64,000 bases of DNA from positions 62,001-126,000 of the forward strand of contig NZ_AYKF01000066.1 of NCBI RefSeq assembly GCF_003732545.1, read 5' to 3'. Positions 55,395 to 57,806 of this stretch are shown one piece after another. How positions within the stretch are numbered: the first letter of the stretch is position 1; every line of letters begins with the position of its first letter. Both the position numbers and the translations under genes were made by a program. Origin of the DNA: Salinisphaera orenii subsp. halophila YIM 95161 (lineage in GTDB: Bacteria > Pseudomonadota > Gammaproteobacteria > Nevskiales > Salinisphaeraceae). The notes below the pieces were generated by a model. It saw only the letters and a list, made by a program, of their open reading frames with translations. It had not been told where the DNA came from and made no database searches.

Positions 55395-57526
55395 GATTGC
55401 GTGTCCTCGGTGTCGGCCGGGGGCCCGGTCGGCGCCTCCAGCAGGGCCGTGAAAGCGGCCTCGTCGAGCAGTGTGACCCCCAGCTTCCGGGCCTTGTCGC
55501 GCTTGCTTCCGGGGGCGTCACCGACGACCACGTAGTCGGTCTTTTTCGACACGCTCGACGTGACCCGGCCACCCAGCGCCTCGATGCGTTCGGTCGCCGC
55601 CTCGCGGCTCAGGTCCGCCATGCTGCCCGTGAGCACGAAGGTCCGCCCCGCCAGCGGCCGGGGGGCGTCGTCCACCGCGATCGTCTCCCAGGTCACGCCG
55701 GCCGCGATCAGCGCGTCGATGACCTCGCGGTTGCGCGGCTCCGCGAAGAAGTCGGCGATGCAGCCGGCCACCCGCGCGCCCACGCCGGGTACGGCCTGCA
55801 AGCCTTCCGCGGTCATGATGCGATCGCGGGCGGCGCGATTGTCGGGTTCGCTGTGAGCCGCGCGCGCCAGCCGTTCCCGGTACGCCACAGCCTCGTCCTG
55901 CAGGGCTTTCAGACTGCCGAAATGACGCGCGAGATCGCGTGCCATCGTCTCCCCGACCTCGCGGATGCCCAGCGCGAAGATGAAGCGCTCCAGCGTGGTC
56001 TGCTTGCTGGCCTCGATGGAGGCCAGCAGGTTGGCCACGGACTTCTCGCCGTAGCCCTCGCGCGCGACAAGGTCCTCGCGATGCTCGACCAGCCGGAAGA
56101 TGTCCGCCGGCGAGCCCAGCAGCCCCTCGGCGACGAACTGCTCGATCTGGCGCTCGCCGAGGCCGTCGATGTCCAGCGCACGCCGGGAGGCGAAATGCTT
56201 GAGCGCCTCACGGCGCTGCGCGGCACAGACCAGGCCGCCGCTGCAGCGCGCGATCGCCTCGCCCTCGACGCGCTCGATGCCGGAGCCGCAGACGGGACAG
56301 GCCTCGGGCAGCGTGATGGGCCGGGCGTCCGCCGGGCGTCTGTCGACCAGCACCCGCGGGATCTCGGGGATGACGTCGCCGGCGCGCCGCACCACCACCG
56401 TGTCGCCCACGCGCACATCCTTGCGCGCGATCTCGTCCATGTTGTGCAGGCTGGCGTTCGACACCGTCACCCCGCCGACGAACACCGGCTCCAGCTTGGC
56501 CACCGGCGTCAGCGCGCCGGTGCGGCCGACCTGGAATTCCACCGCGTTGAGCCGGGTGGTGGCCTCCTCGGCCGGAAACTTGCGCGCGATCGCCCAGCGC
56601 GGCGCGCGGGCGACGAAGCCCAGTTCGGCGCGGACGTCGGCGGCGTCGACCTTGAACACGCAGCCGTCGATCTCGATGTCGAGGCCGGCGCGGCGCTCGG
56701 CCATCGCCGCGTAGTAGGCCTTGCAGCCGTCCAGTCCCTCGACCCGCTCGACGTGCTCGCTGACGGTGAATCCCCAGGCGGCGAGCCGGTCGATCTGGGC
56801 ATACAGGCTACCCGGAAGACGGGCGCCGTCGATGCGGCCGATGCCGTAGGCCATGAATGCCAGCGGCCGGGTCGCGGTCACCCGGGAGTCGAGCTGGCGC
56901 AGGCTGCCGGCGGCCGCGTTGCGCGGATTCACGAACGGCTTCTGTCCGTCCTCGCCCAAGCGTGCGTTGAGGGCCTCGAAGCGCGACCGGGCGAGCACGA
57001 CCTCGCCGCGCACCTCGACGAAATCCGGCGGCTCGTCGCCGGCCAGCCGCAACGGCAGATTGCGGATGGTGCGGGCGTTGGCGGTGATGTCCTCGCCGGT
57101 GACGCCGTCGCCGCGGGTCGCCGCCAGCTGCAGCACGCCCGCCTCGTAGCGCAGGTTCAGCGCCGTGCCGTCGAACTTCGGCTCGGCGCAGTAGGTCAGC
57201 GCCTCCGCGTTCACACCCTCTCGTGCGCGCCGGTCGAACTCGGCCAGTTCGTCGTCGTCGAAGCAGTTGGCCAGCGACAGCATAGGCGTCGCGTGATCCA
57301 CGGCGTCGAACTTCTCCGACGGCGGCGCCCCGACCCGCTGGGTGGGGGAATCGGCGCGCACGAGCTCGGGATGCTCGGCCTCCAGCGCCTGCAGCTCGCG
57401 GAACAGCCGGTCGTACTCGGCGTCCGAGACCGTCGGGTCGTCGTCCTGATAGTAGGCGCGATTGTGCGCGCGCAGCGTCCGTGCCAGTTCGTCGGCCCGC
57501 GCGCGCGCCTGCCGATCCGCGGCCAC
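55391..57526 (-). CDS. ligA: NAD-dependent DNA ligase
   Basis: The 711-residue LigA has the adenylation motif EPKFDG with Lys117 (E. coli Lys115), an OB fold, a four-Cys zinc finger (CPVCGSG...CSGGLVC), HhH repeats and a C-terminal BRCT domain ([20 protein letters not shown]). The GTG start at 57526 fits both this numbering and the ribosome site GGAGGT, 7 nt upstream. That site is part of the terminal repeat of the inserted element. An in-frame ATG further upstream (57586) would lie inside the element. zipA is the next gene upstream. Confidence 0.96.
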
Positions 57527-57806
57527 TAGGGAACCTCCGATTGAATCGTCGCGATCGCGCCGGCGTGCTTTGCGCGCGGCTGGCAAGGAATCGCGAGCGT
57601 GGCGTGCTCATTGCACGGTAGCGAGTGATGACGCCGTCCAGACGCGCGCAAAGCCCCGGCCCCGACGGGGTTCGGCCTCAAATGCACTGCGACGGCGTTG
57701 CCAAGCGTGACCTGGCAACGAGCCAGGCGCGACGCTTGGGCGCCTTGTCGCAACGCATTTGAGGACACGAACACGAGCCGCGAAAATTCAAACGGAGGTT
57801 CCCTAG
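57526..57806. mobile_element. MITE-like element with 17-bp inverted repeats and CTAG duplications between zipA and ligA
   Basis: The 273-bp core (57530-57802) begins GGAACCTCCGATTGAAT and ends with the complement of GGAACCTCCGTTTGAAT, 16 of 17 matching. CTAG flanks both sides (57526-57529 and 57803-57806), fitting the YTAR target of the IS5 group. No transposase is encoded, so it is non-autonomous. The right CTAG holds the zipA stop TAG. The left one borders the ligA GTG, and the terminal repeat provides its GGAGGT. Removing the core and one CTAG gives TAGTG, an ancestral overlap of zipA stop and ligA start. Confidence 0.88.

Follow-up and report, generated by a model that had tools for sequence, protein, structure and literature searches.

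An apparent IS5-group MITE on the zipA stop codon of Salinisphaera, with a predicted hairpin-gated Shine-Dalgarno sequence for ligA

The Chunjie MITE of Geobacter uraniireducens is reportedly, to go by the title of its description, inserted in an operon without disturbing the operon structure. In its accessible part, a 2024 review of prokaryotic MITEs describes Chunjie as disrupting a phosphate uptake operon in one of the copies present, and the terms 'stop codon', 'start codon' and 'ribosome' are absent from this review. The insertion sequence IS5 duplicates Py-T-A-Pu (YTAR), with CTAG, itself under-represented among tetranucleotides, as the most frequent form (PMC5493358, available excerpts). 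For the ERIC elements of enterobacteria, excerpts of the literature describe ribosomes that change the conformation of MITE-like RNA, with upstream transcripts being affected (PMC2229807), and by analogy ERIC offers a precedent for the ribosome-driven refolding that we consider below. No description of stop-codon residence of YTAR elements, or of a Shine-Dalgarno (SD) sequence in a MITE repeat, was found in the accessible portions of the open-licence papers among the matches listed.

Here, we analyse an element lying between zipA and ligA, both of them generally regarded as essential genes, in Salinisphaera orenii subsp. halophila YIM 95161. The window – the whole stretch of DNA that was analysed – comprises 64,000 nucleotides of contig NZ_AYKF01000066.1. 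The element, designated family A, and its exact placement on the zipA stop and ligA start codons are certain. Our main reading, to which we give a probability of roughly 0.6, is that an IS5-group MITE settled on the zipA stop, that a stop-start overlap was swapped for hairpin-gated coupling with a strong SD, and that residence on the stop is harmless upstream. The features of the junction, in window coordinates, are these:

55391-57526, minus strand: ligA from its GTG (PF01653; NF005932)
57526-57529: CTAG target-site duplication, ligA side, overlapping the ligA GTG (57526-57524, minus strand)
57530-57802: 273-bp core of the IS5-group MITE (family A)
57530-57546, plus strand: terminal inverted repeat, ligA side
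57533-57538, minus strand: GGAGGT, candidate ligA SD, predicted to be paired with the zipA-side repeat
57567-57654, minus strand: inner hairpin 2, with arms at 57567-57583 and 57638-57654
57676-57764, minus strand: inner hairpin 1, with arms at 57676-57708 and 57732-57764
57786-57802, minus strand: terminal inverted repeat, zipA side, matching the other at 16/17 positions
57803-57806: CTAG target-site duplication, zipA side, containing the zipA stop TAG (57805-57803, minus strand)
57803-58717, minus strand: zipA (PF04354; TIGR02205)

The ends of the element, GGAACCTCCGATTGAAT against the reverse complement GGAACCTCCGTTTGAAT, are identical at 16 of 17 positions, and with the flanks included they form 32-nt arms that are 88% complementary. 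An earlier note on this DNA had described a 273-bp core with such 17-bp ends between two CTAGs, and this arrangement was borne out at 57526-57806. The zipA stop lies in one CTAG and the first G of the ligA GTG in the other, both on the minus strand, and the stop is thus retained, as the note had also proposed, by the duplicated CTAG at 57803-57806. The note had further placed a GGAGGT from the terminal repeat 7 nt before the GTG; the motif is present (57538-57533, minus strand), with a spacer of 6 nt. There is no transposase within the 273 bp, the longest listed frame being one of 82 aa (57526-57774, minus strand). The 281-nt strand is predicted to fold at -174.5 kcal/mol, compared with -115.0 (sd 4.8) for shuffled sequences (z -12.3), into a structure in which the terminal repeats form an outer stem and two hairpins lie inside it. 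This extreme fold, together with the uninterrupted junction in relatives, argues that the presence of the element here is not a matter of chance. An Rfam search with the element gave no family at threshold and a single match, mir-33, at 17.2 of 50 bits. Antisense to ligA there is a 710-aa open frame (57529 being its last position and 55397 its first, plus strand) that ends in the same CTAG and is a shadow frame by codon score.

LigA was found in 17 of the 18 genomes searched, including 13 of 14 Salinisphaera, and the 13 zipA-ligA junctions of the genus fall into several types. Two (our own genome and G012) carry the family-A element; four (G003, G005, G007 and G009) have an uninterrupted TAGTG in which the zipA stop overlaps the ligA GTG; one (G001) has another element, of family B, on the same zipA stop; and the remaining six are short and uninserted, the stop being TGA or TAA. 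Among named records, the same family-A insertion is present in Salinisphaera orenii MK-B5 (L235), Salinisphaera sp. Q1T1-3 has the same other element as G001, and the TAGTG junction occurs in S. shabanensis E1L3A (L227) and in L226, L228 and L229. Comparison of the junctions shows the family-A element to be an insertion, for which the target CTAG would have consisted of the last base of the zipA CGC codon and the TAG stop. With the core and a single CTAG taken out, the window reads CGCTAGTGG, and from these flanks the original empty site would have read CTAGTG. The earlier note had predicted that very site: the TAGTG overlap was indeed recovered in the four sister genomes, but all four read GTAGTG, and CTAGTG itself was not seen.

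Relative to the S. orenii copy, the element differs at 4 of 281 positions, compared with 6.8% of four-fold sites in ligA and 5.0% in zipA. On these numbers the element looked strongly constrained after its divergence from S. orenii, but the argument was set aside, since 17 orthologous family-B copies diverge by anything from 0 to 17%. Two database records are unusual with respect to LigA. The protein of the record 'Endozoicomonas sp. G2_2' is 77% identical to the window LigA and its gene has a TAGTG junction, and the titles of L229 and L280 look swapped; LigA of the record 'Salinisphaera sp. G21_0' is just 51% identical and resembles that of an Endozoicomonas record (L284).

Family A extends beyond this locus. 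The 281-bp query matched 25 of 61 genomes, including our own, and 12 of 14 Salinisphaera, with only short or weak matches in G004, G008 and G011 and several matches each in G001, G002, G003, G005, G007, G009 and G010. Further copies in the same genome, for which the earlier note had suggested a search, did not appear: with the end motif and the 281-bp query none was found in our own genome beyond the junction copy, and additional copies occur only in sister species. Most copies in G001 are flanked on both sides by TTAG, or by CTAA in the other orientation, and the identical flanking pairs observed among element copies are CTAG, TTAG, CTAA and, once, ATAG, with any identical four letters allowed. 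The TTAG...TTAG flanks point to a 4-bp YTAR duplication around element ends starting with GGAACC, which disfavours a TA-only duplication of the IS630 type. An IS630/Tc1-type MITE with a TA duplication inside CTAG would fit the CTAG on both sides equally well from the letters alone; in the TTAG...TTAG and CTAA...CTAA copies, however, the outer variable base belongs to the target, and elements with this type of end encode IS5-family transposases, so that we regard this assignment as very improbable.

Candidate relatives with transposases are present in the same order, where GG...CC end pairs with YTAR flanks were recovered at 23 of 30 loci carrying a related transposase, in a scan that sought only such flanks and ends and cannot alone prove a 4-bp duplication; the best pairs are 1.14-1.23 kb apart in 22 of these 23. 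The IS5-family elements have ends such as GGAAGCTCTGCACTAA and GGAAACTCTGATCAAT, and the two transposases tested (L307 and L311) belong to IS5-family NF033581. Our own genome contains a fragment of such a transposase (L128) beside a family-A-like end, GGAACCACTGAACAACTC, plus CTAG, and this fragment is the only candidate partner with an end of the family-A type next to a YTAR. An intact partner was absent among 19 DUF772 matches in 14 Salinisphaera genomes (the inverted repeats of six were inspected) or among 17 DDE_Tnp_1 matches in nine genomes (7 of 14 Salinisphaera plus G016 and G023). The YTAR duplication, the terminal repeats, the absent transposase and the similar-ended IS5-family elements all support the proposal of a non-autonomous IS5-group element made in the earlier note, and make a strong case that family A is an IS5-group MITE.

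What the element does to ligA translation is a matter of prediction from folding models. Computed against an anti-SD sequence that we assume to apply, the duplex of the element GGAGGT has an energy of -10.7 kcal/mol, compared with -0.1 for the genome's own zipA tail. The corresponding values for the four uninterrupted relatives are -3.1, -3.1, -3.1 and -6.4 kcal/mol, the last being that of G009, whose junction has some SD-like pairing of its own. In the free fold of the single strand, which leaves aside translation and co-transcriptional folding, GGAGGT and GTG are predicted to pair completely with the zipA-side repeat, the unpaired probability being 0.00 at each of the nine positions; with pairing of the first bases of the element blocked, to mimic a ribosome at the zipA stop, the unpaired probability becomes 0.18-0.73 for the SD and 0.32-0.39 for the GUG. 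Coupling may thus have been rebuilt, since in the prediction the GGAGGT is paired with the other repeat and a ribosome sitting on the zipA stop would release it in part, and the dependence of ligA on zipA translation may well have been kept. The claim that the insertion replaces stop-start coupling is accordingly not supported in the form first given, the SD and GTG being predicted to be paired and to be partly freed by the ribosome that terminates on zipA.

The insertion duplicated the CTAG at the end of zipA, so that one CTAG kept the zipA stop and the other holds the first base of the ligA GTG. The steps after that are our proposal. In the mRNA the terminal repeats would pair, hiding the GGAGGU and GUG of ligA, and a ribosome finishing zipA would cover the zipA-side repeat and free the SD, from which ligA would be started by coupled initiation. 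A stop-start overlap would thereby have been exchanged for a hairpin gate with a strong SD.

It is also possible, though on the unlikely side, that the insertion was merely tolerated, the duplication leaving both genes open and the ligA SD being freely accessible with no coupling, which is the mechanism first put forward for this DNA. The GGAGGT with its 6-nt spacer is strong by itself, and the outer stem is absent when pairs are limited to 150 nt, and the SD may therefore be accessible in the cell; against this, the two element ends alone pair at -48.3 kcal/mol, and the free fold leaves neither SD nor GUG exposed. RNases are reported to cut the hairpins of ERIC and Correia elements, and by analogy those at the junction could be cut so as to separate zipA and ligA levels, an effect on the RNA and not on initiation. 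The great stability of the double hairpin would suit such cutting, but there is no terminator-like site – nor a sigma-70 promoter match – in 57450-57900, and we consider this explanation unlikely. Hairpin-gated coupling is the reading that we carry forward.

Provision of an SD by family A appears to recur at other genes. In G009 a copy places AGAGGTTCCT directly before the ATG of aroC, with an anti-SD energy of -7.1 kcal/mol, compared with -2.5, -2.2 and -2.9 for aroC in three close relatives that have no element, and in G002 a copy places AGAGGTTCCTAA before ddl (-7.0 kcal/mol). The duplications of these two copies are less clear and no upstream stop is claimed to lie in them, so that only the SD part of the arrangement recurs there. 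A frame ending in TAA upstream of the ddl element is just 38 codons long, and we do not count it as a gene. Nor do all elements supply an SD, since some element ends adjoin gene starts without one, as with a family-A copy in G023 (GAGCTT) before the start of a gene that we take to be exonuclease-like.

Family B, the element found on the zipA stop in G001, is an abundant MITE in Salinisphaera, with ends GGCCTGTTGA. It was matched in 14 of 14 genomes of the genus, with up to 102 matches in one, and 56 pieces in our own genome are among the matches listed; no mention of Salinisphaera appeared in the open-licence papers listed, 15 of 410 matches. One copy lies in the window at the end of another gene:

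27614-27897: second MITE of the window (family B), CTAG at both ends, left end degenerate; matching piece G000:C66:89639-89728
27894-29096, minus strand: lapB (TPR repeats; PF18073 Zn_ribbon_LapB), its stop TAG inside the right CTAG of family B (27894-27897)

This copy differs from that of S. orenii at 41 of 260 compared positions, and was excluded from the counted flank pairs because of its degenerate left end. Elements of 853-858 bp with family-B-like ends enclose IS5-family transposase matches in L120, L126 and L127, with frames of 261 aa (L120), 267 aa (L127, NF033580) and only 170 aa open at the match (L126). The 858-bp IS5-family element of L127 (1139-2004) sits in a CTAG that is the shared stop of two convergent genes, and both stops are kept. 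Its neighbours are a racemase (PF01177) and a kinase (PF08543), presumably murI and pdxY, respectively.

Since a TAR stop codon is part of YTAR, an element that inserts into a stop restores that stop, and because YTAR holds TAA or TAG in either reading direction, residence on stops can be counted. Gene ends were called by our own six-frame comparison of coding scores; an initial classifier was dropped, having scored antisense shadow frames as genes, such as the frame opposite ligA. In a sample of loci rather than a census, 30 of the 67 distinct copies for which both ends were recovered coincide exactly with the stop of a frame scored as coding, orthologous insertions having been merged only where flanks were identical. 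Of the 33 stop-site frames, all but L004 were run separately against Pfam, and 31 of these 32 gave matches, L185 being the exception. Omission of L004 (the same insertion as L003), L012 and L025 (outside the genus) and a 172-bp chimeric call in L176 leaves 63 Salinisphaera copies, with 28 on stops, 32 intergenic and 3 interior, compared with 67, 541 and 119, respectively, of 727 uninserted YTAR sites. With coding-interior sites left out and sites treated as independent, the odds ratio for stop against intergenic positions is 7.1 (p 1e-10); for CTAG only, copies number 21 on stops and 22 intergenic against 40 and 131 uninserted sites (odds ratio 3.1, p 0.002), and relative to sites 1-30 nt beyond a stop the odds ratio is 3.2 (p 0.03). 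CTAG itself occurs 18 times in the window, with 77 occurrences expected. This sample supports an excess of Salinisphaera elements exactly on stop codons, relative to uninserted YTAR sites. Selection, site preference or both could account for it. Selection is favoured, because YTAR is a pyrimidine plus a TAR stop and insertion there would cost the upstream gene nothing.

These observations suggest a broader idea, which we hold tentatively and rate as somewhat doubtful: that YTAR elements use stops as safe harbours, with the duplication regenerating the stop, the repeat bringing an outward SD, and the paired repeats forming a ready-made switch for translational coupling. If true, MITEs have installed switches in core operons of Salinisphaera, with zipA-ligA as one example – where a second family occupies the same stop in another species – and with related SD supply at aroC and ddl. 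The stop-codon excess, the proposed hairpin-gated coupling and the repeat before aroC and ddl in two other species all go beyond the first reading of this DNA. The arrangement explains the harmless entry of a mobile element into a closely packed pair of core genes, and the uninterrupted, family-A and family-B forms of the junction provide a natural series for asking whether transposons are able to rebuild translational coupling. A general and countable prediction follows, that any element duplicating YTAR should be enriched on stop codons.

Among described systems, the family-A element resembles the IS5 (E. coli) group in its 4-bp Py-T-A-Pu duplication, as given in the available text on that group (PMC5493358), and in its GG...CC ends. 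IS5-family elements with similar ends carry a DDE transposase; unlike IS5, the family-A element is 273 bp long, has no transposase, sits on the stop codon of an operon gene and offers a candidate SD. Like Chunjie, to judge from the title of the latter's description, it is inserted in an operon. QMITE2 of Coxiella burnetii is a MITE in a similar position, at the 3' end of enhC and beside the stop codon, but extends the protein in one strain and has its stop by an indel in another; regeneration of a stop by target duplication, as in family A, is not seen in the accessible account of QMITE2 (PMC5896051). ERIC, in the excerpts available, exposes an RNase E site (PMC2229807), whereas the family-A element is predicted to expose an SD.
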